DNA of 64,000 bases. Origin: Dipodascopsis uninucleata var. uninucleata (Eukaryota; Ascomycota; Lipomycetes; Lipomycetales; Lipomycetaceae). The notes beneath the pieces were generated by a model, which saw only the letters and a list, made by a program, of their open reading frames with translations, was not told where the DNA came from and did not search any database. Location: contig JAJLTO010000001.1 in NCBI GenBank assembly GCA_030568195.1, positions 1,240,001-1,304,000 of the forward strand, given 5' to 3'. Shown here piece by piece: positions 15,210 to 63,896 of this stretch (positions are counted from its first letter, which is position 1; each line of letters begins with the position of its first letter). A program made the translations under genes and the position numbers.

Positions 15210-15540
15210 GTTGTATTATTTCATAATACAAAGTTTATAGTTAAAGCTACCGTCCAATTAATGTAACGGCTACAGTATAAAAGTTCTTAGGAGTTAAGCC
15301 ATGACGCAAGATGCATATACGGAAGTTCATATTTACTTGGGACAAAAAAACTGCGACGTGAATATCAAAATCTAATACGCGTACATTGAGCAGCAGAATA
15401 CACTTTATACGAGATAAATGTTAGATTAGCCTGTATTTAATACAAATAGGATCAAGTTTATGGATCTCAAATATTAGTTGAAGTATGATCAGCGGCCAGA
15501 TGCAATAGTGGAGCAATAATTGATATAAGAACTTGTGTCT
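15210..15540. promoter_or_regulatory. Shared promoter of TatD gene and RAD51-motif gene
   Basis: A 331-bp divergent interval, AT-rich, with one ACGCGT at 15377-15382. One such hexamer per interval is near chance expectation, so its role as an MCB is only suggestive, though it fits a DNA-repair gene next door. Confidence 0.4.
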
Positions 15541-16305
15541 ATGAAGACATTCATTGAGGACTCTGAGTATGAAGAACTATTTACTGACGATTCCTCGGCC
15601 GAGCTAGATAGTAATGAGGAATCAAATGAAGATGAGATATTAAATGGAGTTGTAGGAAATGGACAAGTTCTTCGCAAGTGGAGAGAGACTAGGGGTAGCA
15701 TCGGTCGTGCTGTTGACGGTCATGATGAGTTGACCGAGCACACGGAAAGTTTCAGCGAGCATCTACAATCTAGCCCAGACATTTTAACAACAAGCAAGTG
15801 CACTTCAGATCCACATCCAGGTCTTATATCATGGTATACAGGGAATATTGGTGAGACTAGCGGGGAGTTGAAAATCGAAATGCGCGAACCGCTGTCAGAT
15901 TCTGAGAAATATGCGTCAAGTCAACAGAGCTCTATTTCGCAAACCGATTCCAGTTCTATTACACGAATATCATCCTCTGCTACGACCCATACTAGCTTAT
16001 GCCATAACATAAGCTGTCGTGCAGAACTTACTGACCAAGATACATCAACAGACAAAGATTTCGCGTCAGTCAGGAACCAATATGAAGTAAACCACATAAG
16101 ATATCGGCCCAATAACGCGTCAGTCGCACAGCTCGCATCTACTATAATCAGCGATAATCATAAAAAGGCCACCAATTCAGAGATAATGCAATTTATTCGA
16201 ACTAAATATTCAATATCTACAAAAAGTTCGCTCAGAGTTGGTCTATCGAAAAAACATAAAGTCGAATCATTACATCCATATCTGAAGAGCAAAAACCCAC
16301 AATAA
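15541..16305 (+). CDS. Disordered acidic/Ser-rich protein ending in a RAD51AP1-like motif
   Basis: A single-exon frame of 254 residues from the first ATG at 15541. The first 40 residues are acidic (EYEELFTDDSSAELDSNEE), the middle is Ser/Thr-rich, and the end, about residues 230-254, is basic: LRVGLSKKHKVESLHPYL. The pattern GLS-x4-V-x2-LHP at an extreme C-terminus recalls the RAD51-binding tail of RAD51AP1 and RAD51AP2. If right, this is a recombination accessory protein that contacts RAD51 in the nucleus. Just before it, IISDNHKKATNSEIMQFIRT looks helical. No catalytic domain is seen. The similarity is from memory of a short motif, so the function is inference. Confidence 0.6.
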   Translation: MKTFIEDSEYEELFTDDSSAELDSNEESNEDEILNGVVGNGQVLRKWRETRGSIGRAVDGHDELTEHTESFSEHLQSSPDILTTSKCTSDPHPGLISWYTGNIGETSGELKIEMREPLSDSEKYASSQQSSISQTDSSSITRISSSATTHTSLCHNISCRAELTDQDTSTDKDFASVRNQYEVNHIRYRPNNASVAQLASTIISDNHKKATNSEIMQFIRTKYSISTKSSLRVGLSKKHKVESLHPYLKSKNPQ

Positions 16306-19798: not shown

Positions 19799-21729
19799 TC
19801 ATGCGGTGGATGCTATTCCGATTCCTAGCCCAATTAGCTCAAAAATAATTCCATTTATTCCTACCGCAATGAAACCAATTCCTGAATAAACTATAAGTTT
19901 CGTTATGACCTCAACGTCATATTGCACACGAGGCTTAGGGATTTGCTGAAGCATTTCGTCCTCATTAAGTCCAGAAAATTCATCTGGAGAAAGGGACGAT
20001 TCTATTAAATATACTGTTAGTAGCGAAGAAATCATAGTTGTTGCTAAAGAAAAATACTTACCAGAATCAACATCATTGCTAGCGAGAGAGTGCCTTCGCT
20101 TACGTTCTTCTCGATATGCAATAGTTTCATACATATCGGCAGTACTTTGTGGTCCTACGGAGTCAGAACGTAAACGAGCAATATTCTTCACCAAAGAAGG
20201 GATTTCTCTGGCTTCCACCAATGTAGTGTCTGGAATCTTACTAGGAACATCTTTGTACTCTGATGCTTTCAGGAAAAACTCTCTAGGCATTGAAAGACCA
20301 ATACGCTCGATCACGCGATAAAGTGGGGGTAAAGCCTCATGCAAAAAGGGCTTCATGATTGCGCGATATACAAATACTAATACTAGACCAAGGAAAACAC
20401 GAAGTATAGAGCGAATCAATCCAATCTTCTCATAGCTGTATGGAATTGAGCCTGGGAACGCAGAAGAATCTGAGTAAATACTTCGGGAGTACATCCACCA
20501 TCCAATATCCATACCTAAGATGACGCCAGCAAAAGCGACACTATCCTCAAAACACGGACAAGGATCAACAGGTTCCGGGTGAATTCGGACCAGGATAAGG
20601 ATAATAATGGTCCAAAGTATTGGCACAATAATTCCGTTCGAAATCATAAAAGAGTCAATCAAAGGTCCCCAGATCCAGCGCATGTAGAATAGAGCAGCTC
20701 CCAGTAGTGATCCAGCAATGACGTCCGAAAACCCATGCATACCACAATAAATGCGACCTAGCGTTATACTAAATATATAAAGAAATGCGGAAACTTTGAC
20801 GACGAAATAAGTGAAAGGAGAGAAAGAGTCCGCACTCTCGAAAGCTGTATAGAGAAGAAGAAGACCAGCAGAAACAGCGTTCGTACTATGAGTACTCGGA
20901 AATCCATATTCAAGTGCTGCCGAACCAGACATGGTGATACGATGTAATGGCGGCGACAATGGTCGAGGTAAACTGGACGATGTCCACGCTGTTAGCAATG
21001 TGCATAAATGATCTGACGTAATAAAGCAAATAATATCAGCACTTACCATAATAAATCTTTTAAAAATCCACTAACATAGACTCCAATTGCTAATACATAT
21101 ACCAAGCTATATTACAAGGTTAGTCGATATGATTTATGCACGACAGATGATAGAAAATCCAGGAGGTCTGCAATAATTATTCCAATACACTTACGCTCGT
21201 CCTAATTCCGCATAACCAAACCAGAACGGCATTGGTAGCATGATAACAAAGAAAGTATGAGTTCCAAGATTAGCGGTCAATGCAAAATAGTCATCCAACA
21301 GCTTTGATCGTAAAGATGTCTAATGAGTTTAGTCCAGATGTTAGCATTCATGTATGACATGTGTGATGCGGTGCTAAGACAAGAAAAAGAGTGTACAGAA
21401 GCATATACTTGGAGTATAGGTAATACCGCTTCTGCATTACACGCTGTTCCAGTAAAGTGACCATCCGAATCCCGTCTACTCGTCTATGAATGTATAAGTA
21501 CTATTCCTACCTGAATATTTGCTAGATGTGGTGTCTCCCATCTTATTAGCGGAAGACATGCTTGTCGAAATTTGAACCGCAATTTTGACATTGACGATTT
21601 GTAATGATCACGGCTTCGATTGCCTGCATCCTTGATATTGATACTTTCAAAGCCTTTAACGTTATCCGCTGCGTCCTTAATCGCCGTCGGGGTAGTTGCA
21701 TTTTTCATTTCCTTATCCGACTGCTTCAT
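19799..21729 (-). CDS. LCB3: Long-chain-base-1-phosphate phosphatase (LCB3/YSR2)
   Basis: ER membrane PAP2-superfamily enzyme that dephosphorylates sphingoid base phosphates. Exons 21729-21511, 21319-21195, 21106-21047, 20972-20062 and 20001-19799 give 505 residues. The junctions restore family sequence: LIRWETPHLANIQ|TSLRSKLLDDYFALTANLG, then ELGRA|LVYVLAIGVY and FLKDLLC|LPRPLSPPLHR. PAP2 motifs are KDLLCLPRP (K-x6-RP type), PSTHSTNA, and GRIYCGMHGFSDVIAG with its catalytic His. Multiple hydrophobic spans surround them. The last intron, 60 bp at 20002-20061 (GTAAGT donor, CTACTAAC branch), is free of stops and a multiple of three. It would otherwise be read as protein. Confidence 0.92.
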
Positions 21730-22489: not shown

Positions 22490-23313
22490 ATGTTCAGCCT
22501 ACAAAAAATCGATGACAATGTATTGGCCGACTTTCAGTTCAAAATTGTAGTGGTAGGAGATGGTATGTGTGGTAAAACTTCAATGTTACTCACATACGCT
22601 TATGGAGTGTTTCCAGCTGTAAGTGCTTATCTAATAGCTGGTTAATATGATACACCATCATAGGATACCGAGGCTGATTTAAGACCATTTCATTTTAGAG
22701 CTACGTACCTACTATATTTGAAAATCACAAAGCGAAAGGAAGGCTCGAAGATGGTAGAATAGTGGAATTTTCATTATGGGATACTGCGGGTCAGGAGGAT
22801 TACGACAGATTGCGACCATTAGCTTTTGCAGACACTTCTCTTTGCTTAATATGTTTCTCTGTTGACAATCCAACAAGCCTGCAAAACGTGTTGGACAAGG
22901 TAAGTAAATTCAGCAGCAATAACTAGCCTAACTTATTTTAACTTATAAGTACCTTTCTGACGCATGCTGTTATTGTGCAGTGGTGGCCGGAGGTCGTACA
23001 TTATTGCGCAACGAAAACGCCTATAGTACTAGTTGCCTTGAAGACAGATTTACGTACTGACAATTCAACGATTGACAAATTGAAAACACAAGGATTGAAA
23101 CCATTGACAGAACAGCAAGGTAAGAGTGTGGCTCTTCTCCTAGGGGGGGTGCCATATGCTGAGTGCTCTGCACTACGTAATGAGGGTGTCAACGCTTTGT
23201 TTGATTTGGCACTTTCATGTCTAGTGACTATCAGAAAGAGTAAGAATAAGTCGTCGAAGCACAACTCTTCTAAGAAAAACGGAAGTGGTGGAGGCAAATG
23301 CATGATTCTATAG
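22490..23313 (+). CDS. RHO4: Rho-family small GTPase, RHO4-like
   Basis: Membrane-anchored switch for polarity, septation and cell-wall synthesis. Exons 22490-22618, 22699-22899 and 22981-23313 give 220 residues. All G motifs are present: P-loop [12 protein letters not shown], effector region [32 protein letters not shown] in place of the usual TKxD, and ECSALRNEG. The Rho-specific insert region and WWPEVVHYC (Rho4-type WFPEVKHFC) are visible. The tail is polybasic ([17 protein letters not shown]) and ends in the CAAX box CMIL, so it should be geranylgeranylated. Met in the P-loop (GDGMCGKT, where GDGACGKT or GDGGCGKT is usual) is a mild deviation. Rho4 rather than Rho3 rests on the WWPE block and tail. 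Confidence 0.88.
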
Positions 23314-23591: not shown

Positions 23592-24036
23592 TTAGCTGTC
23601 TTCTGTATCGTCTTCCATTGTAACCTCCATTTCATCGTTTGCTTCATTGTGTGTTTCATGAGCCATACTATCATAGAAACTACTCCATAGCACAGAGACG
23701 CTCTCAAATTCTTTACCAACCTGTTTCTATTGTCAGCTATACCACCATTATCATGAAAAGTTGATCAAAATCACGTACCGAAATAACTCCTTCTAGCGAT
23801 CTATTGAGAGTGTTTATATTGGCTAGAACGTGCTCGAGACTCTAAGATTATAAATGAAAATTTGATTAGTCCTGTTTTATATTCGACAATATAAATCATA
23901 TTTATCAGCTAGTACTCACGACCGCTATCTCTGATATTAGCGCCTCCCTTTGTTTCTCAAAGTATGTCTTCTCGCCCTGTGTATAATTTGATAGCGTACG
24001 ACCTGGCGTTGAGGTAGCAGATGTACTTCCCTCCAT
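23592..24036 (-). CDS. DAD1: DASH/Dam1 complex subunit DAD1
   Basis: Outer-kinetochore subunit that helps form the microtubule-coupling DASH ring. Three exons (24036-23920, 23841-23779, 23720-23592) join in phase 0 to 102 residues, too fragmented to show as one open frame. The core reads YFEKQREALISEIAVSLEHV, then NINTLNRSLEGVISVGKEFE, then VSVLWSSFYDSM, which is the DAD1 pattern (FE-Q-R..LI-EI..VL-N-N-LNR.LE..I-VG.EFE.V..LW..F). An acidic tail follows. Donors are GTGAGT and GTACGT; acceptors CTTAG and ACAG. It lies head to head with DAD3, another subunit of the same complex, 284 bp between the ATGs. Confidence 0.9.
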
Positions 24037-24320
24037 TCTGTAAATGAAACTATAGCTCTACCAGGCTAAATATATTGTAATATCATACAAACAGTGAGAA
24101 TGATACGAGTTAACAACTACTACAGTGTATATATGAGATCCGGTATTCTAGCTATTCTAGCGGCTAACAAATGTATACTATTTAAGGATCCTGTGTTTTT
24201 GAATGCGAGCGCGTAAAACCTAAGCCTATTATTTACAGAGGTGAACGCGACAAGTACAGGTTATCGATGATATTATATCTCTTCTCAAAGCTGCAATATT
24301 ACAGTACGACATAGAGAACA
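24037..24320. promoter_or_regulatory. Bidirectional promoter between DAD1 and DAD3
   Basis: The 284 bp between divergent start codons must hold both promoters and leaders, so coordinated transcription of two DASH subunits is likely. No perfect ACGCGT is present; a GAGCGCGTAAAA segment lies near 24208. Confidence 0.6.
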
Positions 24321-24753
24321 ATGTCTTCCTCACCTGATCTTTTATCAGATAATAGTGACTCGGGACTTGTCATCAAAAATAATATAATTACTAGTGTGGG
24401 CAATACCAGTAGTGTTTCTGATGCTCTTGAAAAGAGTCTTCTCTCAACAACGGAACAAAGCTTGCTAAAAGAATATCGGCTTCTTAACAACAATCTCCAA
24501 AAGGTGCGTTAATCGTATAGCTATCAATTATAACTTAGTCTAACATTATTTTTTAATTTAGCTTTCAGAGGATTTATCGAGACTTTCATCAGTGCCAACA
24601 CCAGAGATACTTGACAATTTACGAGTACTTGAGCGAAAGACTGCTGTGGTATTAACACTTTTGAAAGCATCTGTTTACAGCATATTCCTACAGCAGCAAT
24701 TGCACGATGAAGAAGGCGTTTTGATATCAGAGGACGGTGGAATCGACCAGTAA
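24321..24753 (+). CDS. DAD3: DASH/Dam1 complex subunit DAD3
   Basis: Outer-kinetochore DASH subunit. Exons 24321-24503 and 24562-24753 (58-bp intron, GTGCGT donor, TTTAG acceptor) give 124 residues. The family core is clear: TEQSLLKEYRLLNNNLQKLS, then TPEILDNLRVLERKTAVVLT, then LLKASVYSIFLQQQ, matching the DAD3 pattern of a helical hairpin ending in LLK.SVYS..LQ. The N-terminal 38 residues are Ser/Asn-rich and extend beyond the usual compact subunit. It is transcribed away from DAD1 with a shared promoter. Confidence 0.9.
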
Positions 24754-24888: not shown

Positions 24889-25955
24889 TTAATGACCAAA
24901 GTACACCTTTTGAACATCGACAAGTTTTTTACCTCGGGCGAGAGCAATATCATGTGGCATTACTTGATCTTGCAGCATCAACCACGCAGCCTTGACAGTG
25001 TTCATCTTGTTTCGTGAGCCACGGACTTTACCAGCTATATCTCGAATTCCAGCACATCGGCAGACCTCATACACAAGGTGATTTGCGCGCAGACCAAATC
25101 CTATAGTTCAAACAATACTTAGCATGAATCATGGGTAATAAAAAATCTTCTAAAACGTAAATATAACATACCTGCTGGACGAGACCATAATTCTACATCA
25201 ACTCCATGGTAGCTCTTCTTCAAGTTACCGTATATTGTTCGCTTATTCAATCGTGGAATGTAAACCATATTTTTGATTGCTTTCCATTTGGACTTCGTTA
25301 CTGCGTTTGATACACTCTCACGGTCCTTACCTTCAGCAATTCCTACCATACCATTTTGATCTCCAACAACCGTCAGACAATAATAACTTCGAATTTTTCC
25401 CAGTCTTGTAACATTGGATACATATTTAACAACAAGAGGGCGAACCAAGAGCTTATTGATGTAATCGGGGCTCAGCTTGTGATTGATGTAAAGATTCTGC
25501 TTGATGGTACCTTCAGTCTGATCTGTAGCTTCAAATTCTGTAGTAGCTGTCAGCTTTGGGATGTCAGACTTATTTGAAGAACTGAATGGCTTAATTGGAC
25601 TATTTATAAAGTCGTAAAATTCTTCCCTTTTTGAGAGGTCATCCACATATGATAATGGAAACATGGTCTTCGCCGGCTCACGCTCCTTGAACATATTTTC
25701 TGTTACTGCTTCCTCAGCAGCAACAATTGCCTTCATCATTTGCGGAGAATAATAGTGACTCAACCGTTCAAGATTACTAGCTCGTCGTTTTTCCCAGAAT
25801 TCGGAGTCATCCTTACTCTCTGAAAATAATATTGAGGCTGTCGATAATAGTCTACTACTAGGCTTACTAGTACCAACATAAGACGAACCAAAAGTCCACA
25901 TTAAGGTCAGTCGACTGAACCCACGTGGTAGCCCCAGTATCGACTTGCTTACCAT
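24889..25955 (-). CDS. MRPS5: Mitochondrial ribosomal protein uS5m (MRPS5)
   Basis: Small-subunit mitochondrial ribosomal protein. Exons 25955-25172 and 25100-24889 join inside SRPAG|FGLRANHL to 331 residues; the 71-bp intron has GTATGT and ATAG borders. The S5 double-stranded RNA-binding fold is seen in the middle (RLGKIRSYYCLTVVGDQNGM, GIAEGKDRESVSNAVTKSKW), and the C-terminal S5 domain in VELWSRPAGFGLRANHLVYE and CAGIRDIAGKVRGSRN. The Arg/Ser/Leu-rich first 40 residues look like an import presequence. It is divergent from TRM2 with about 360 bp between. Confidence 0.93.
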
Positions 25956-26313
25956 CTCCTACTATTAAATAATATCTAGAAGATAAAACGCTATCAACTG
26001 AGGAGTCGATGATTTCCCCTTGCAAATCCTTAACTTTTGGTAAAGTTCCAGTTTACCACAGGAAACGACGAAAAAAATTTGAGATTCTTCATTTGTAGTA
26101 TTTCAGTAGCTTTTGCAGTTATACCGTAAACACAGTAAATTATTAACTAAATTCAGGAGCATGTAAACCCTTGACCAATAATATTTGAAATAATTTTTGA
26201 AATAATCAAAATCATATGCAAAAAAACAATTGTAAGGCAAAATATCTTTAATGGGGATAAGCAGAGGGTCAAAGTAGCTGAAAGAGTCGTGATTTTGTAT
26301 ATTTATGTAGCTT
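25956..26313. promoter_or_regulatory. Shared promoter of MRPS5 and TRM2
   Basis: An AT-rich divergent interval of 358 bp. It holds a CCAAT box at 26175-26179 and an imperfect tandem TTTGAAATAAT repeat just after it. CCAAT boxes bound by HAP factors are common at fungal mitochondrial genes; here that is inference. Confidence 0.4.
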
Positions 26314-28147: not shown

Positions 28148-29585
28148 TTAAGAGGTCATGTTTATCGTAGCATTCAATTGAAATAAGTCTCAATTGTGTA
28201 TGTATATGACAGCTGCTATAAAGTAAAATAGAATCGTGTTAAGCAGGCTCTACTTTCTAGATTTGTTGGACTTTCGCTTCAAATGACCCCTGTACTGCAA
28301 AAGTTCATCTTTTATGTTACCACTCTTTCGTATACGCTCTTCTGTCCTTTTTTGTCCTCTGTTCAAACATCAAATAATTAGACAGATTTGTGACGATATT
28401 CGTCCTAATGATAATGGCATATATATTATGTGCATTTTGATATCACGTGATTATTGAGAATCACTTGACAGAAACGGTACTAAATTACACTGAAAGCTGG
28501 TCGCAAGGAAAATCGCATTTAGGACTTAAAAACTAGTTTCTATTTAGAAAAGCCTTCCAAATAATTAGAAGAGGTGCTAAAGAAGACTTTTAATGTAGTT
28601 ACTAGAGCATAAAGTATTGTTGACATGATTTAAAGGAATTAAAAGGGTGAGAGATTTTAAGTCTATGTTATAATGAAATAAATGGCCAATTTCACCTATG
28701 CGACTCTTTCTATGTTCCGAATACCTCATAAGCTAATCAATGCTGCATGTAATTATTTGTGATCGCACATATATGACCTTAAGCAAACAATCTTTAACTA
28801 GGGAAAGCATTGTTTCGCTTGTTTTTGTTTTTAGAGATAATTGCGTAACTAAATAAACCGCTTTTGATAGCTAGGACGAGTCCCTATTTAACAAAGCAGC
28901 TGCTATATAACGTACTAGCACAATAGTAAATAATTTCGATATAGTAGTTTGCTGGCAGTAATCCTCGTATATTGCGCGAATTTTTATGTCTCCTAGCTTT
29001 CAATTCTATGTTTTACAAGGCTTTCTGTTTGAATGGTTCGAAGTGTTGGCGGTTGATACCAAAAAGAGCGTAAATGAAGTTTATATAATATTTATTACGG
29101 TTTGCATTAACTAGTCAACCTCCCACCGAAGTATCCTTGAATTGAGAGCACCAGACCATAAGTCTTCTGAATACAGCATTTGTTAATAAGGCTAGAAGCT
29201 TACAGCACCTACGTACACATTAATCGAATTAAGGCTAAGGAAATACAGACGGTGTGTTTTCTTCTACATCATGTTTTTTTAGACGGTGTGCTGTTTTATA
29301 GACAAGATAGCAAGGACTTTCAAGGCAAATCAGCGCATGCCGAATAACCAGAGGCGGTGACGACTTGTTGCTGCTCAGAATAAGACCAAATACGACTATC
29401 GCTGAAAAGTTCGTCCTGTTTCAAACAAAGGTTCTAGAATATTAACTAAGATTCATTGATTCGACTTGTTAACACCGTGCTTGTGTGAGATTAGCAAAAG
29501 AATCTTTGTCTCCAATAGTTTTAGCGCCTGTAGCTGTAAGACCTAAGGGGAATAGTAGACAACTAAAGAATCCAGCAGCGTCCAG
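28148..29585. other. Gene-poor interval with one orphan exon-like frame
   Basis: About 1.4 kb of AT-rich DNA. At 28358-28250 on the minus strand a frame opens right after an AACAG acceptor-like site and encodes a basic tail (KSGNIKDELLQYRGHLKRKS) to a stop. No matching upstream exon is found, so it may be a leftover. The last few hundred bases are presumably the MIL1 promoter and leader. Confidence 0.45.
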
Positions 29586-32500
29586 ATGTCTCTGTCAGAT
29601 AATAGCAACGCTGACAATCACGAACTTCGGGGTTCGTCGAATGCTATCGATGGAGGAGATTTCGGTAACCAAATTGCGGAAGAGAACGGCGAAATAAAGC
29701 TCACATTCGATCAGCAGTACGATCTCGATGAAGACGCTTCAGCCAGTGTGTTCGATAGCACCGACATGACTTCCACACAAGGTTCACAGAGTACACCCGC
29801 AGCACTATATACTGAAGTTGATTCTTCTGATAATGTTTGGGCTTCTGTACCATCCAAAGCATTGACGAGTGCGCCTCGTGTACGGTCTTCTATGGAGTCT
29901 TCGGCGACTGCCGACTCGATGGCCATGCTGTCATTGACAAACTCGAGCGACGGTATGAACGATCATACAGCGACACCTATTCGGGTATCTACTGAACATC
30001 ATCTGGATCAATTACATGATATTAAGCATAATTCCAGTTCCCTAGTCTCATCTGTAGACTCTATAGCTTCATCCGACATTGCATTACCTCATCCAGCAGT
30101 TCCAGCTAGTGCAGTTCATACCGATACGAGTATGGGCCAAAGCAGTATCCTATTGTCGCCTTCGATTCCTAACGGCTCATCTATTCCTATGAAGAGAATT
30201 GGTTCTAGTCATCAAAATAAGTCTGTGGACGAAATAGAAAAACACTTTTTCCCCGGCTACGCAAATTATTCTGCAGATAATGCACACGGCAATTCAAATC
30301 AGGTTTCTGAATGGTCCTACCAACAAATGGCTCCATCTGTTTTGAAACAAAAGGAGACGGAACGAAACTCTTCTTTTCTAGTGGATAACTCAATTAACTC
30401 CTTGGACATGAAAGTTAGTCCATCAGCGAACATGTCTGCTTATTTAGGTGAAGCGTTGAATGAGAAGACTGTTGATGAAACCACAGAAGGTAGTAGTAAT
30501 GGTAATACTAGTGATAATCACTCCAACTCTAGCAGTCAAGTGAATGAAAATACTAGCGTTAACCGCAATGTCAATCGTGTATTATCGAAGGCAAATGATC
30601 ATGCAGATTCCTCTGAAGCAAATAATGAAGATGGTTGGCAGGAGATGCCAGTTTTTGCGAGCCATGACATTTATGACGAAGAAGGAAATATCGTAGCACA
30701 TCAAGAAGTTGAAAGTGAAAATGAAGAAGAGGAAAATAATAGACGAGGAGGTGCTGGAAAGGGATATACGCGCGTTACAATCGATGAGGACGATGATGCT
30801 AATGGTGTAAACATTGAGAGTGATACACAGTATCTTTTCCACGACGATGATCCCACCAATACCGAGGCACGCAATCCACTTTATCAGATGCGAACTACGA
30901 AGGAACTTTTAACTGATTCGCAACGTATAGCATATGTTGGTCTCTGCAAATTGGCAATGGTTGACATGGCTACCGAGCTTGCGTCAAAAAAGGGTTCTCA
31001 AAGAATAGCTCGTCGGTTAAGTACTGCGCACGGTTCGATGGCAATGTGGTCTCAAAAAATTATAATGAGATTATATGCTCACATGGATATTTCACCGGAA
31101 GAGCAATTAATGATTGAGCAACTTTCCGCCCATGGTGTAGAGACTATGGACCTGACGCCAACTTTAATGCAGAATGCTCGCGTCAAGAATCCTATGAATG
31201 AAGCATCTAGAACATCAGGTTCCTCTGAACTTAATGCATCTCGCTCTGATACACCTTTGCCTGAATATTCACCGACTGCTTCTCCAAATAACGAGGTAGT
31301 ACCTTTGTCAAGTATTTCAAATAAAGAAACGCTAGATATCGACATACGCTGGACTATTTTATGTGATCTCTTTCTGGTCCTTGTCGCAGATTCGGTTTAT
31401 GATTCACGATCCCGTACATTACTAGAAGCTGTCGGCAATGCACTGCAAGTGAATTGGCTTGATATCTCAAAGTTTGAGAAACGACTCACTGATGCTATTG
31501 ACATCGAAGAGTCTAGTTATCAAATTTGGAAGGAAGATGATATCATTGAAGTTCGACGAAAGAAGTCGTTAAAGAAGAAATACATGTACATGGGTTTGGC
31601 TACTATCGGTGGATCGTTGGTTATTGGTCTTTCTGCTGGTCTTTTGGCCCCTGTCATCGGCGCTGGCCTGGCAGCTGGTCTCACAACTATTGGTATTACG
31701 GGAACTTCAGGCTTCTTAGCTGGAGCTGGAGGTACAGCGATTGTCACGACTACTGGTGTGGCAATCGGCGCTAAGATTGGAAGTCAAGGAATGTCTAGAC
31801 GTATGGGTCATGTCAAAACTTTTGAATTTCGTCCATTGTATAACAATGAGCGGGTTAATTTGATTGTAACTGTGTCTGGCTGGCTTATGGGTAAAGAAGA
31901 TGATGTCAGGCTACCATTCTCTACTGTAGACCCAATTATGGGGGATGTATTCTCACTCTTTTGGGAACCTGAGATGCTTTCTTCTATGGGTCAGACAATT
32001 AATATCCTTGCTACTGAGGTCTTAACACAGTCTATTCAGCAAGTTTTGGGCAGTACAATTCTTGTTGCGCTAATGTCATCTATTCAGCTACCTATGATGC
32101 TCAGTAAACTAGGATACTTATTAGACAATCCTTGGAACGTATCTCTGGATCGTGCATGGGCTGCAGGTTTAATTCTTGCCGATACTTTAATTCAGAGAAA
32201 TCTTGGAGTTCGTCCTGTCACTTTAGTCGGCTTTTCTCTTGGTGCCCGTGTGATTGTTTCCTGCTTAATAGAGCTTGCTAAAAGAAATGCATTTGGCTTG
32301 GTACAAAATGTATATATTTTCGGTTCTCCGGTTGTCGTGAAGCGAGATCATTTTGTTATTGCCTCTAGTATGGTTAGTGGAAGATTTGTTAATGGTTTCT
32401 CGCGTAAAGATTGGATTCTTGGCTATCTTTTCCGCGCGACAAGTGGTGGATTGGGCCGAATCTGTGGTCTCGCCCCTATTGAAGATATTCATGGAATTGA

Positions 32501-33050
32501 GAATGTGGACTGTACAGATTTGGTTGATGGCCATATGGCGTACCGAGAGGCTATGCCACGACTTCTTAGAAGATGTGGCTGGGAGGTTTTGAGCGATGAA
32601 TTTACAGAACTCGAAGATCCTGATCCTGATCAACAACGTGAGAGGCAGAGAGAGCTCATTATGGAATTCGAGGAAGCGCGGAAAAAGGCTGAGCGCGAAG
32701 GGAAAGTATCTCATTCGAAATTTAGATTTCCTTGGGCTAAATCTAAGAAGAAAGAGTGGTGGGAGATGTATGAGAACGCGGAAGCTCGAAATTCGTCCTC
32801 GCCATCTTCATCACGATACGATATGGACGATCTTGACCTTGATGATGACTACGATACCGATTCTAGCACAATAGCTCCTAGTAGTAGTGCTAAATCTAAG
32901 GCAGCCAAACAAAATGCTCTAAATTTTCATCCATATCCTCAGATTAGACGTTATTCACCTGATGGAGAAGAAGAAAACGAAACAGAAACGCTTTTCGACG
33001 TCGATGCTATTCGCCGCGAAATTGAGAAGGCTAGAAAAAGTCATCACTAA
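29586..33050 (+). CDS. MIL1: DUF726 / TMCO4-family protein (MIL1-like)
   Basis: A single-exon, 1154-residue membrane protein with an alpha/beta-hydrolase-like domain, related to yeast Mil1 (a clathrin adaptor interactor) and animal TMCO4. The first 450 residues are Ser/Asn/Asp-rich and disordered. A glycine-rich hydrophobic block near residues 667-735 (MYMGLATIGGSLVIGLSAGL and onward) should insert in a membrane. The hydrolase core follows: FEFRPLYNNERVNLIVTVSG, WEPEMLSSMG, then nucleophile elbow GFSLGAR near residue 881, with IFGSPVV and DLVDGHMAYR as likely sites of the other catalytic residues. A charged coiled-coil tail (EEARKKAEREGK) ends the protein. The start is the first ATG in a frame with upstream stops. 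Confidence 0.9.
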   Translation: MSLSDNSNADNHELRGSSNAIDGGDFGNQIAEENGEIKLTFDQQYDLDEDASASVFDSTDMTSTQGSQSTPAALYTEVDSSDNVWASVPSKALTSAPRVRSSMESSATADSMAMLSLTNSSDGMNDHTATPIRVSTEHHLDQLHDIKHNSSSLVSSVDSIASSDIALPHPAVPASAVHTDTSMGQSSILLSPSIPNGSSIPMKRIGSSHQNKSVDEIEKHFFPGYANYSADNAHGNSNQVSEWSYQQMAPSVLKQKETERNSSFLVDNSINSLDMKVSPSANMSAYLGEALNEKTVDETTEGSSNGNTSDNHSNSSSQVNENTSVNRNVNRVLSKANDHADSSEANNEDGWQEMPVFASHDIYDEEGNIVAHQEVESENEEEENNRRGGAGKGYTRVTIDEDDDANGVNIESDTQYLFHDDDPTNTEARNPLYQMRTTKELLTDSQRIAYVGLCKLAMVDMATELASKKGSQRIARRLSTAHGSMAMWSQKIIMRLYAHMDISPEEQLMIEQLSAHGVETMDLTPTLMQNARVKNPMNEASRTSGSSELNASRSDTPLPEYSPTASPNNEVVPLSSISNKETLDIDIRWTILCDLFLVLVADSVYDSRSRTLLEAVGNALQVNWLDISKFEKRLTDAIDIEESSYQIWKEDDIIEVRRKKSLKKKYMYMGLATIGGSLVIGLSAGLLAPVIGAGLAAGLTTIGITGTSGFLAGAGGTAIVTTTGVAIGAKIGSQGMSRRMGHVKTFEFRPLYNNERVNLIVTVSGWLMGKEDDVRLPFSTVDPIMGDVFSLFWEPEMLSSMGQTINILATEVLTQSIQQVLGSTILVALMSSIQLPMMLSKLGYLLDNPWNVSLDRAWAAGLILADTLIQRNLGVRPVTLVGFSLGARVIVSCLIELAKRNAFGLVQNVYIFGSPVVVKRDHFVIASSMVSGRFVNGFSRKDWILGYLFRATSGGLGRICGLAPIEDIHGIENVDCTDLVDGHMAYREAMPRLLRRCGWEVLSDEFTELEDPDPDQQRERQRELIMEFEEARKKAEREGKVSHSKFRFPWAKSKKKEWWEMYENAEARNSSSPSSSRYDMDDLDLDDDYDTDSSTIAPSSSAKSKAAKQNALNFHPYPQIRRYSPDGEEENETETLFDVDAIRREIEKARKSHH

Positions 33051-34302: not shown

Positions 34303-36116
34303 ATGGCAGCGCGAGGTTTTAGACATGATCGAAGCGCTTGTGAAGAGAGTATAGAATACATTTTTACACATGCCAGTAAGCACGCAAGAAAAGCAGGTCT
34401 GAAGAAGAGGACATCGATCCTAAAGAATATTGCTGGCTCCACAACAATTAAAAAAATCATTTTGTTGATGGCGCTTCGAGAAATAAGGAGTAATCAAAGA
34501 ACTCTATCCGATATTACAGAAAAAGGTGGGCATATAGCGTTGAGTGAGGTTCGTGGAGTAACACCTTCTGACGCGGAATTAGAAGCCGTCGAAACAAATG
34601 ATGATTACAATGCCTATTTGATCAACTTGAATATGACCATCAATACGAGCTCGGAACGAGGAGGTGGCATTTTATTCGAGCCTAGACCTAAGCGTAAAGT
34701 TGAAGTATGCGTGGGGCTAATAAAAGCTACGGCAGATCAGGCGGTAGAAGTTTCAAGTGAAAAAATTCGAGCAGATCGACGAAACAGTCATTTGGAGTCG
34801 CTGACAAAAATTTGTGCTCGGGTGATCACAATAAATGGAATAAAGTGGCGTGAACTTGAACTACCTCTCATTTGTCAAAATACTCTAAAAGAGGATCAAG
34901 GATATTATGTTGTTTCTGACCCGGAGATAGACAGTTCGGAGGATGACGAGTCTATGCAAAGTGTCTCCTCGCAACAGGAAGATATCGGGAAAGCTAAGAA
35001 AGAAAAGAGGATTTTCCTTTCTAGCGGAACTTTAGTGATCTGTCCAGATGAAGAATTCACGAACTGGACAGAGGAGCTAGAAAACAACAACACCAACTCT
35101 CAGATGCTGCGGGTATTAGAACATAGATTCGGACTTGACGTACCATCATGTGAAAAACTAATCGTGTACGAAGTCGTGCTTATTAGTCATTCAAGATTTT
35201 ATAGAGAGAGCTTACATGGTATGTATTAAGATTTTTTTTTACTGTCTCATCAGCTCTTTTGATAGAGCTAGGAGAACTAATACGGCTAGCGATAGAGCGT
35301 AAATAGCTTCTAGACGAACTGTAACTAACGTTAAAATTTGATCTACATTCAGCTTACCAATCGCCAATTTTCCAAATACATTGGCGAAGAGTGATACTAG
35401 ATTCTACTACAGAACATAGTTCATGGTGGCTAAATACTGTCAGTCTTGCAAGTAAACTACGCTCCAATATGCGCTGGCTTGTAGGCGGTCTAGGGGTTTC
35501 TGAAGGCCAACGAGAAGAGTCCAGCTGTCCCATAAGCAACGAACAAATAAAGAGGCGCTGTAGCAGCCGAGACAATAATGAGAGAAAAGCCGCACATGGA
35601 GCCGCAGATGTGACAGGTGACATGGGAGCTGTCGGAAATATTCTAGAGACAAAGCTAGAAAAATCAGCTGGTATAGTTCGTGGCAATATCTCCGAAAAAT
35701 TTGAGGAATCAGGCGACGATAAAGATGACGATGCAAGTGAGTTGGATATCACCTGTTACTACAATGAGTTCGAGAGCTCCTTAATTGATCGATACGAAAG
35801 ATTATGGCCGCTTGCAAAATTTTTCTGTGACCTTGACACAGAGAAGGACGTGCAGGCAGAAAACTCTCCCAAATGTGCAAATCTACAAGATACTAGAGTT
35901 ATTAGCAATGGAGACTGTACGGGAATCAAGGATAAAAAAAAAAAAAAAAGAAAAAGAACTACGGCGGCTGCAGACTTGTCAAAGCTGTGGCAAGACAAAA
36001 GTGATGTGATGATAATAGATTCGAAGGTCATAAGTCAATTAGAATTCAGGGTGGCTCAAATAGTGAGAACACTCAAAAGACTAGTCGTATGGAATCCCAT
36101 ACCTGCGGAAATTTAA
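34303..36116 (+). CDS. Degenerate SNF2-like protein lacking ATPase motifs
   Basis: Exons 34303-35218 and 35353-36116 (134-bp intron, GTATGT donor, GTAACTAAC branch, TTCAG acceptor) give 559 residues. Segments follow the order of the intact SNF2 ATPase at 51107-54604: LTKICARVITINGIKW with a following YYVVSDPE (there LSKICALTINRHGLPW, YVVED), SSGTLVICPDEEFTNWTEEL (there SGTTLIICPDALQAQWYGEI), EVVLISHSRFYRESLH, and PIFQIHWRRVILDSTTEHSS (there PLHEIHWKRIIVDEGHSMSS). Every ATPase motif is lost: the P-loop region reads NIAGSTTIKKIILL, DEGH reads DSTT, and TGTP reads VGGL. The helicase C domain is absent; the frame ends after RVAQIVRTLKRLVVW. Lys-rich coding includes a run of 16 A. It is either a retained pseudoenzyme or a young pseudogene; open frames and a clean intron favour retention. 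Confidence 0.65.
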
Positions 36117-48622: not shown

Positions 48623-50294
48623 TTACTCATCTCCATCTTCCTCTTCATCCTCAAAATCATCTTCATCAGTAGACATTCTAACTGCTTCGTTGCGCTTAGT
48701 ATCCCATATTTGCACAACTCCATTACTACCACCGACAGAGAGAGTATGTGATGCTGACTTATCTGGTAGCCAAGAAGCCGCAAATACCTTTCCTACCCCG
48801 AGATCGCGGTTTAACACAAGCGAAGGTGCATTTCCATTGATGTTCCAGAGTTTGACAGTTTGATCGGTAGATCCAGTAGCAATCAAACCTTTTATGTGAG
48901 TATTCACATCGAAAGTAGTGACTTCAGAGTCATGCGCCTGTAATGTCCATAAAGGTTTTGATCCTGCATTACGCGCGTCAAAGTAGTAAACACATCCATT
49001 TTCTGCCGTTACGAAAAAGTAAGTCGGATTATGTGGATCCCATTTAACAGTTTCAACGTCACTTGTGATCGTCCATCGTCGCGTGCCCTGCTCTGCATCA
49101 AAAACACGCATGTCGCTGACAACCGCGGTACGGTCATATGCACCTGTGAGTAGAACAGGTCCTTCTTCTGGATGCCAAGACAATGTACATACCTTATCTG
49201 AGTGGAAACTGTAACTTCGAGCACATGTTTGTGTGGATAGGTCCCATAGTTTCACGGTCTTGTCCGCAGAACCTGATGCAAGTATGTTACGGTGAAGTCT
49301 ATTAGCTGAGAGTGTCAGAACTGCATCAACATGGTATTCTGTATTAGCTTTGAGCTCTCGTCCTTTATTTTTTGATATCTTCTTTTTTTTCTTGTCTTTC
49401 TTCGATTTTGATTTATCTTCTGCTGCATCAGCAACCGCTTGATTCTCAATGTGCTTGTCTCCAAGAATAGCATCAGGATACATTCCGTCAACAACATCCA
49501 AATTCCAAATCTCAATGTTAGGCTCGAAAGTACCAATCGCAGCAAAATTTCCCCGGTCATTCTCTTCTGTTCTTGTCTTTCCTACTCGGACATCAAGCCA
49601 TTCTACGCAGAGAGGAAAAGAAGGCAGTAAAATATCATGATGTACATAGAGGTTTGAGTTTGATTCCTCGTAGACGCAAACTTCCATGTGTGAGAGATTA
49701 TCTTCAGTTTTGGTAACGAGAAGAAGATTATCACTATCATATATCTGTAGCTCCTCCTTTTCTTCATCCTCTAAAGCATCTCCTTGGCCATTTTTGCTTT
49801 CTGTTAAAACAATGTACGGATCTTCGTCGTTTGATTTGTAGTATGCCAGTGATTTGATGTTAGAAAACATATGCAATGAACGCTCCTCCGTGTCAGGCTC
49901 GGCATCGTAATTGTCAAGATTATACTCTTTTATGATAGCATCGTCGTCATCTACAGCGCTCTTTATTAGGCTAAACAATAATCATGTGTCAGTTTGTATC
50001 TCCAAGCTTTCCTTATTGTTCTCTCTTCCTCTATTACAGCACTTACTTCGTTGCAGCTTCTAGAGCAATCTTAGTAGCTTCGTTTCCTTCTTCATCCACC
50101 ATGATACTTCCAGCTTCTTCAACTGCATCGTCACCTTCTATTTCATTTTCGGCATTTTCGAGATCATTTCTCGCATCGTCCAGACGCAATTGAGCAAACT
50201 TCGAAATTCTGTCTAGCTCTTGGTCATCCAGTTCATATTGGACAGGAAATTCTGCTGCATAGCCTCTGGGAACCCAGGTTGTGCAGGATATCAT
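48623..50294 (-). CDS. PWP1: PWP1, WD40 ribosome-biogenesis protein
   Basis: Periodic tryptophan protein 1, a nucleolar WD40 factor in 60S subunit assembly. Exons 50294-50047 and 49970-48623 (76-bp intron, GTAAGT donor, TTTAG acceptor) join as ALEAAT|NLIKSAVDD to 531 residues. The start MISCTTWVPRGYAAEFPVQY is the hallmark of the family. Then come an acidic linker, VEWLDVRVG, IEIWNLDVVDGMYPDAILG, a Lys-rich insert (KSKKDKKKKK), and WD repeats HVDAVLTLSANRLHRNILAS, SADKTVKLWDL, VCTLSWHPEEGPVLLTG, STDQTVKLWNI. The tail is acidic (DEDDFEDEEEDGDE). Both length and order match the family. Confidence 0.94.
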
Positions 50295-61075: not shown

Positions 61076-62513
61076 ATGTCGTTCTATTCTCCCTCGCAAC
61101 ACCCGCTATTGGTGCGTGATGTCAACGGAAGTGGTGGAAACTCGTCTTCCAGAACGTCAGAATCTCTCAATAATGTGGAGCGGAACTTCTCTAATAGTAG
61201 TGTAGTTTCTTCTTCAATGACTTCAGTACGAAGACAGCGAGGTCCTGCCTATGCGCTGTCTCTTTCAACGCTTTTGAGTCAGTCAGATTCAGCAATTTCA
61301 ACAACAGAATCGGAAGTATCTGCCGGCAACATTCTTCAAGATGAGGAATGGGTACTATTTTCTGCTGGTGGAAGTTCATCACTAATACAAGAGGAAGAAG
61401 TCAATGAAGATGAAGATAAAAATGAAGACCAAGATGAGGATAATGACAATCCTAATGATGTATATGATATGTCTATATTAGCCATAGGAGATCGTGATAA
61501 TGAAGGTTATGTAAGTGATACCGACTGTGTAAATTATTTCAAAGTTCCTGCTTGATTATGGATCGCTAATTAATTCGATATTTTTCTTCTTACAGGCTAT
61601 TGCTACGCCTGGCAGAAGGCCAGAGCACGGTTTTGCTTTTCCAGAGCATGATGGACATGGCTCCTTCGTAGCCACGCCTACTCAGCATGCTATAACTGCA
61701 CTTCCCTCATATTCATCAGCTGAGACAACAGCTCGAATCAATGCATGGCGATTAGATCATTCTGAGCAGTTGTTCAGAGAATTACAGCGCCTACAGTCTC
61801 GTTCTCTTGCGTCACATAATCGGCGATCCGATAGTATATCAAGTTGGGGTATCCCTTCTGAAGAGCACATTGATGAGAGCAACTCAAATATGTATCACAA
61901 TGATGCCAATCGTAACGAGCTGGATGACGGAGATTTGGATAAATATTCAGACGTGGATAGCGAAAACTTCTTGGTTATGAGACCTGCAAGAGGCGTTATG
62001 TCATCAGTAGCTAGGCAATCTAAAGCAACAGACGAAAGTACTAGATGGGGTTTATTTAACTCTGCACCAAATATGGCAGATGCTGTTAATCGAAGAGAAC
62101 AAGTAAATGATGATAATTCACAATCTTTGCAATCTTCAGGAGGATTTTGGCAAAGGCTCACTAGACGCGTCATACATGATATTATTGGGATAAATGATGA
62201 AGTATTAGATGTTTTATTTGGTGAACGCTCACAAGGTGATTCTGCGTTACACACTTTGTCAGCTGAGGACGGAGGTGTGGCAAAGACTACCTTAGGGCCG
62301 GAGCTGATGAAATTATTATATCCTCCTGCGGTGAAAGACTTCTCTCAAGCAGAAATAGTTAGCGAAAGGGCTAGCTCTGTAATCAGTTCATCTTGCAGTA
62401 GTTATCCTCAGTTATGGGAAGAGAAGTTAATTGCACGTATTGGCCGAGAATTAGGATTAAGATATTGTAATGACTATGGTAGCATTGAAATTTGTCATGG
62501 GCTATTTGTTTGA
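61076..62513 (+). CDS. Ser/acidic-rich protein of unknown function
   Basis: Exons 61076-61510 and 61596-62513 (85-bp intron, GTAAGT donor, TTACAG acceptor) join as DNEGY|AIATPGRR to 450 residues. The N-terminal part is Ser-rich (NSSSRTSESLNNVERNFSNS) with RRQRGPAYALSLSTLLSQSD, then an acidic stretch (EEEVNEDEDKNEDQDEDND). Past the intron FVATPTQHAITALPSYSS and ARINAWRLDHSEQLFRELQR form a recognisably ordered segment, and a C-terminal block WQRLTRRVIHDIIGINDEVL ... IARIGRELGLRYCNDYGS is probably helical. It may be a fungal family without a name known to me. The start used is the first in-frame ATG. Confidence 0.75.
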
Positions 62514-62980: not shown

Positions 62981-63896
62981 TTAGACCTTGAAACCACGAG
63001 AACGACGACGACCACGGGCCTGCTCGAACTTGCGTCCCACAGACAAAACCTTTGGAACCTTGTGCTTGTGAGGACCGAAACCAAAGCTCTTGACCTCCTT
63101 TCGAGCGTTCTTAGGACCTCTCAGCAACAAAGTGTTCTGTCCAGTTGGTGCACGAAGGGCAAGCTGATCAAGGGTAATAGTCTCACCACCAGCCTTAAGA
63201 ATCTTCTCCTTTGCACCAGCAGTGAACTTCAAAGCAGCAATGGTTGCCTTTGGGAAATCACCGAGTAAACGAACATCATTAGTAACGGTACCAACAACAA
63301 CAACGATCTTGTCCTTCTTATCTTCATCCTTCAGGGTAGAAGCGATGCGGGAGAGAGAGACAGGAGGACGGTTAACCTTAGAAAGGAAAAGTCGTCGGAG
63401 GATAACCTTATTGAAATTGGAGTCAGTTCGACCTGAAAGAGAATGTCAGTAAATGCACATAATGACCATAAAAGTCTTTGCATCAATTTGATGAAACAGA
63501 AATATACGGCATGTCTAGCAATAGTCCCAAGACTGCTAGAAAAATCAAATTATTGATAATATACAAGATTCTTATAGATCGCACTTATATCCAGATTTCT
63601 CGGTCATCCACGCAGTATCACAATCGTACAATTGACATTTCTGCGAGTACAAATGCAAATAACTTCCTTCATAATAAAAGCCCGTATCAAACTTAGAATC
63701 CCTGTTCTGAAGTAATGCAGCCTCTATGTACACCTAAACTTTCTGTTTCTCTCTCTGCAATCAAAATATTAAAATGCCACTTACGGGCCAAGAATCTGTA
63801 AAGCTTGACCAAAAGCTTTAAGTAGACATTGTCCGACTTAGGGGCAGTACGGTGACTGTTCTTAATATGTTGCTTCTTCGTTAAATCGATACCCAT
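62981..63896 (-). CDS. RPL18: 60S ribosomal protein L18 (eL18)
   Basis: Large-subunit cytosolic ribosomal protein. Exons 63896-63785 and 63432-62981 give 187 residues, the normal length. The start [20 protein letters not shown] and blocks [81 protein letters not shown] and the C-terminus RRRSRGFKV are diagnostic. Codon choice in exon 2 is less AT-biased (many AAG, ACC, GTC) than in neighbours, as expected for a highly expressed gene. The single intron is 352 bp, the longest in the window. Confidence 0.96.

Follow-up and report, generated by a model that had tools for sequence, protein, structure and literature searches.

We consider it likely that two small, intron-split genes lying head to head in Dipodascopsis uninucleata var. 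uninucleata are genuine orthologues of the genes for Dad1 and Dad3 of the DASH/Dam1 complex, and that in this yeast-like fungus they are transcribed divergently from an intergenic region of 284 bp. The pair lies in a contig stretch of 64,000 nucleotides, which was analysed as a whole and is called the window here; all coordinates count from its first letter. The DASH complex is the ring by which yeast chromosomes are attached to the spindle. Its subunits are required jointly in a single complex, and a passage of a published survey (PMC9998035) reports their genes as scattered in 32 species. The DAD1–DAD3 pair offers a natural way to ask whether the order of genes can keep kinetochore parts in balanced supply. 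It also poses a simple comparative question across yeasts, although its interest stays modest if conservation and co-expression do not hold.

Gene models and protein identities

The sequence was read directly and the exons were joined by script. The coordinates, exon counts, orientation, and 284-bp gap proposed by a sequence-only reading of this DNA proved exact on direct re-reading and splicing, and the three protein motifs that it had quoted were all found in the DAD1 and DAD3 translations. The features of the locus are as follows.

24036–23920, minus strand: DAD1 exon 1 (117 nt, 39 codons; ATG at 24036)
23842–23919, minus strand: DAD1 intron 1 (78 nt, GTGAGT...CTTAG, phase 0; in-frame stops on read-through)
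23841–23779, minus strand: DAD1 exon 2 (63 nt, 21 codons)
23721–23778, minus strand: DAD1 intron 2 (58 nt, GTACGT...ACAG, phase 0)
23720–23592, minus strand: DAD1 exon 3 (129 nt with stop, 42 codons plus stop)
24037–24320, no strand assigned: DAD1–DAD3 intergenic gap (284 bp from ATG to ATG, 35% G+C; putative bidirectional promoter)
24321–24503, plus strand: DAD3 exon 1 (183 nt, 61 codons; ATG at 24321)
24504–24561, plus strand: DAD3 intron (58 nt, GTGCGT...TTTAG, phase 0)
24562–24753, plus strand: DAD3 exon 2 (192 nt with stop, 63 codons plus stop)

Spliced DAD1 comprises 102 aa encoded by three exons on the minus strand, and spliced DAD3 comprises 124 aa encoded by two exons on the plus strand. 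In both genes, the start codon (24036 for DAD1 and 24321 for DAD3) is the sole in-frame ATG within its stop-to-stop frame. The names DAD1 and DAD3, which had been assigned from the letters alone, were borne out by a profile search of both spliced proteins against the DASH families, which returned DASH_Dad1 and DASH_Dad3 with Pfam scores far over the cut-offs, and the PDB matches agreed. DAD1 matched DASH_Dad1 (PF08649) with 94.5 bits (4.3e-27; cut-off 31) over profile positions 1–55 of 55, from residue 25 on. Its sole other Pfam match was the Dad4 profile (19.6 bits, 9.1e-4), under the cut-off of 29.8, and by these scores DAD1 is closer to Dad1 than to the paralogue Dad4. DAD3 matched DASH_Dad3 (PF08656) with 86 bits (1.8e-24; cut-off 23.1) over profile positions 1–74 of 76, from residue 41 on, and its sole other Pfam match, WWC1 (0.04), was under the cut-off of that family.

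The best PDB matches of both proteins were the same-named subunits of one solved complex, 6cfz. For DAD1, the top match was 6cfz_F (Dad1; 2.7e-19), followed by 8q84_L (DAD1; 4.5e-11) and one weak match (0.8), and for DAD3, the top match was 6cfz_B (Dad3; 1.9e-16), followed by 8q84_N (DAD3; 3e-5) and two weak matches (0.031 and 1.4). The alignment of DAD1 with 6cfz_F was free of gaps through both joins, at residues 39/40 and 60/61, as was that of DAD3 with 6cfz_B through the join at residues 61/62, whereas the alignment of DAD3 with 8q84_N contained a two-residue gap. The gap-free 6cfz alignments offer the best available support for the three predicted exon joins. DAD1 is similar in size to the Dad1 chains 6cfz_F and 8q84_L (92 and 94 aa) and carries an acidic C-terminal tail past the Pfam match, along with two phase-0 introns. 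DAD3 has one intron, and approximately 40 residues precede its domain in a serine-rich segment (11 of 40). Judged by their protein sequences, the two genes encode true orthologues of Dad1 and Dad3 of the DASH/Dam1 complex.

The statement that neither gene forms a long open frame also held: unspliced, both are broken by stops. Because both genomic spans run into stops, DAD1 and DAD3 are not visible as long frames, and the stop-to-stop pieces bearing their exons are 34–65 aa. Tiny intron-split DASH subunits could easily be overlooked by annotation built on long open frames.

Splice signals were compared among six introns, in three of which, from neighbouring genes, the edges were placed by eye. 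The three DAD1 and DAD3 introns follow the pattern GTNNGT...YAG, with a CTRAY branch-like site 16–28 nt from the 3' end. In the adjacent Ras-family gene, CTRAY sites lie 24–25 nt from the 3' end in two introns (GTAAGT), and the one intron looked at in the adjacent S5 gene (GTATGT) has no CTRAY site. The predicted splice signals of DAD1 and DAD3 are thus consistent among their three introns. The sequence has 39% G+C, and its introns are short.

Genomic setting and organization of the complex

The two genes flanking the pair were recognized by Pfam.

22496–23313, plus strand: pieces of a Ras-family gene, converging on DAD1
24889–25958, minus strand: ribosomal S5 gene, converging on DAD3

The Ras-family neighbour reads as a Rho type, and the S5 neighbour is presumably mitochondrial. 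Between 14068 and 28086 of the window, a run of ten detected genes or gene-like frames has alternating strands: a TatD-type DNase, a 258-aa frame, a CXXC zinc-binding protein, a 548-aa frame that had no match in the Pfam scan, a PAP2 protein, the Ras-family GTPase, DAD1, DAD3, S5, and a tRNA uracil-5 methyltransferase-like protein, which we take to be TRM2. The five divergent pairs in this run have first-ATG gaps of 331, 947, 1440, 284, and 358 bp, of which the four outside the DAD1–DAD3 locus are approximate, like the run itself, since the neighbours were taken as detected frames rather than as full exon models, and small split genes could lie between them. As the ten genes and frames form five divergent gaps, the head-to-head layout is locally ordinary; what sets the locus apart is that its two partners are subunits of the same complex. 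By a hand calculation, nine alternations would arise by coin toss in approximately 0.2% of cases, for a stretch that was picked after the fact and from which split genes may be missing.

In the passage cited above, the 2023 survey of 32 species (PMC9998035) states that Dam1-complex genes 'do not cluster'. It places them on different scaffolds in 18 of the 32 species and finds two or three genes per scaffold, approximately 560 kb apart on average, in 13, so that the passage accounts for 31 of its 32 species. The same gene set that is scattered there has two subunits 284 bp apart here, and the DAD1–DAD3 locus is a counter-example to the statement in that passage. For ten randomly placed genes, giving 45 subunit pairs, and with a quarter of adjacent pairs divergent, 0.013–0.018 adjacent DASH pairs (about 0.015) and 0.003–0.0045 head-to-head DASH pairs are expected by chance per genome of 5000–7000 genes.

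Divergent pairs of partner genes have fungal precedents. According to passages of PMC2871058, divergent gene pairs that are conserved among fungi are mostly separated by short gaps, and their members are often related in function. The DAD1–DAD3 pair resembles the fungal H2A/H2B and H3/H4 pairs described there in its head-to-head order, its short gap, and its origin from partners in one complex, but those are conserved pairs, whereas DAD1–DAD3 is known here from one genome. The word kinetochore is absent from the main text of that study. The sequence-only reading knew of no account of the DAD1–DAD3 pairing, which is compatible with the PMC9998035 statement on the surveyed species and with our search: we found no description of this gene pair in the open-access literature, most subscription papers and synteny databases lying outside its scope. 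Pattern scans gave 5 matches for DAD1 in viral contigs and 54 in genome contigs, and 30 for DAD3 in viral contigs, with no confirmed relative of either; because the collections were viral or prokaryotic, these misses say nothing about fungi. What may be new here is the pairing of DAD1 with DAD3; each of the families is already known, as are divergent gene pairs that encode partners.

The published organization of the complex bears on how closely the two products are associated. A passage of PMC9998035 describes two arms of structural paralogues, with the pairs Ask1–Dad3, Dad2–Duo1, Dad4–Dad1, Hsk3–Dam1, and Spc19–Spc34; the weak match of DAD1 to the Dad4 profile agrees with the Dad1–Dad4 paralogy given there. 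In a passage of PMC4660060, Dad1 and Dad3 stay with Dam1, Duo1, Spc34, and Spc19 in the absence of Hsk3, and this subcomplex is separate from Ask1, Dad2, and Dad4. Combining these two passages, we read Dad1 and Dad3 as members of the same arm. A cross-linked seven-protein species described in part of PMC4821239 lacks Dam1, Duo1, and Dad1 and therefore keeps Dad3, and PMC4660060, again in a passage, reports that Dad1 and Dad3 point their C termini to opposite microtubule ends. A species with Dad3 but without Dad1, together with the opposed C termini, suggests that Dad1 and Dad3 are not an obligate tight pair. Losses of DASH genes in some fast-evolving yeasts are noted in a passage of PMC12322030.

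The intergenic region and explanations for the adjacency

In a bidirectional pair, under 1 kb separates the transcription starts of the two divergent genes; the distance measured here, between start codons, is 284 bp. Given so short a gap, both core promoters probably lie within it, in one common region of open chromatin, and on general grounds the two small subunits would probably be co-expressed to some degree. The sequence-only reading had the two genes share one promoter and found joint control of stoichiometric partners an attractive idea. Both proposals are suggested by the geometry of the locus, and co-regulation through the common gap is plausible.

Motif counts in the gap covered 13 simple motifs, partly nested or overlapping, and placed two ACGCG cores.

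24210, minus strand: ACGCG core
24245, plus strand: ACGCG core

CGCG was seen twice against 0.34 expected, and ACGCG/CGCGT twice against 0.21 expected from the window rate or 0.33 from shuffles. ACGCGW, a forkhead-like word, and a TATA-like word occurred once each, and the other eight of the 13 motifs had no occurrence in the 284 bp. ACGCG is, we assume, a possible cell-cycle element. The doublet was not significant, being equalled in 6.8% of 2000 dinucleotide shuffles and in 4.8% of the 284-bp intervals of the window (taken every 10 bp). Any ACGCG core was found in two of the six divergent gaps examined, namely the DAD1–DAD3 gap and the gap on the TatD side. The full ACGCGT is absent from the former, and one is present in the latter, which is unrelated. 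DAD1 is listed in a table on Msa1/Msa2 in PMC4894574, and its MBF/SBF column is empty in the portion concerned, which therefore gives no support for MBF control.

Several histories could have brought the two genes together. Most likely, an ordinary rearrangement within this compact run of alternating strands produced the adjacency. The first two explanations considered here divide between them the part that divergent transcription of genuine Dad1 and Dad3 orthologues leaves open, and their chances are not exclusive of that reading. We give an even chance to the explanation that the adjacency is accidental, that is, that neutral rearrangement joined two genes, each with its own promoter elements, and that their order is without significance for regulation. 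Divergent neighbours are typical of this part of the window, the ACGCG doublet is not significant, and the Dam1-complex genes were reported as unclustered in the 32 species of the PMC9998035 passage; at 0.013–0.018 per genome, many hundreds of fungal genomes should include some pairs of this kind. The prior is only approximately 1.5% for any one genome, which argues against accident, as does the fact that both genes encode members of one subcomplex (passage of PMC4660060). The effective prior is above approximately 1.5%, because any striking pair in the window would have drawn notice.

A selected bidirectional promoter, in which a single group of cell-cycle elements within the gap drives both genes and keeps Dad1 and Dad3 balanced, is a tentative alternative that we regard as somewhat unlikely. 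The short gap of 284 bp would suit it, and so would the co-occurrence of Dad1 and Dad3 in the subcomplex that forms without Hsk3 (PMC4660060, in part) and the precedent of the conserved fungal H2A/H2B and H3/H4 pairs (PMC2871058, in part). The two ACGCG cores, against 0.33 expected from shuffles, point in the same direction, but a doublet recurring in 6.8% of shuffles and 4.8% of intervals, for one of 13 overlapping motifs, argues against such a promoter, as do the full ACGCGT in the unrelated TatD-side gap, with none between DAD1 and DAD3, and the published subcomplex that contains Dad3 without Dad1 (PMC4821239, in part). In its most far-reaching form, which we think improbable, an early-branching yeast lineage would have placed two DASH subunits of the same arm under a single bidirectional promoter that is timed by the cell cycle and that selection has kept for balanced dosage. 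If true, this would be a regulated two-gene kinetochore module within a complex whose genes were reported as unclustered.

It is highly improbable that the pair survives from the ancient duplications by which the complex was built, with Dad1 and Dad3 arising side by side: passages of PMC9998035 describe eight of the ten subunits as thought to be homologous and report a profile link between Dad3 and Dad4, and DAD1 here weakly matches Dad4 (9.1e-4, under the cut-off), but the closest published pairs are Dad1–Dad4 and Ask1–Dad3 rather than Dad1–Dad3, and the linkage would have to date from before the last eukaryotic common ancestor and to have survived since, although the survey found the genes dispersed. 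An ancient inverted duplication was likewise judged unlikely, as DAD1 and DAD3 showed no similarity by BLASTP (best E 1.6), which is not a profile comparison.

Other features of the window

The Pfam scan covered 35 of the 38 frames of at least 120 aa, together with three smaller gene pieces, and left out the frames at 19950–20321, 35354–35755, and 61895–62344. No further DASH families were among the matches listed for the scanned frames; because these three frames and smaller ones were left unscanned, a further small intron-split DASH subunit could be missed. Rfam gave no matches over the window at gathering scores. The 258-aa frame of the alternating run (15529–16305, plus strand) showed a C-terminal RAD51-interacting motif under the cut-off (20.2 versus 25 bits), and a frame of 1163 aa (29559–33050, plus strand) had a strong Pfam match to DUF726 (1.6e-133). 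A WD40 frame (48623–49981, minus strand) was considered as CDC20/Fizzy, its top Pfam family, and was rejected: that match was under the cut-off, and the best solved relative of the frame is periodic tryptophan protein 1 (PWP1; 2.5e-87).

The ribosomal L18 frame (62981–63445) matched the PDB entries 9spj (234 bits), 7pzy (224.9 bits), and 6woo, 4u3m, and 3j6x (approximately 222 bits), with lower scores for 5it7 and 6uz7 (213.3 bits each), 7r81 (206.9 bits), 7olc (203.7 bits), and 8esq (193.4 bits). With organism labels as we take them to be, budding yeasts score over Pezizomycotina and fission yeast; weighed with the short introns and the 39% G+C, our guess would be an early-branching, intron-rich budding yeast. 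In contrast to L18, both DAD1 and DAD3 score higher with the chains of 6cfz, presumably from Chaetomium, than with those of 8q84, presumably from budding yeast.
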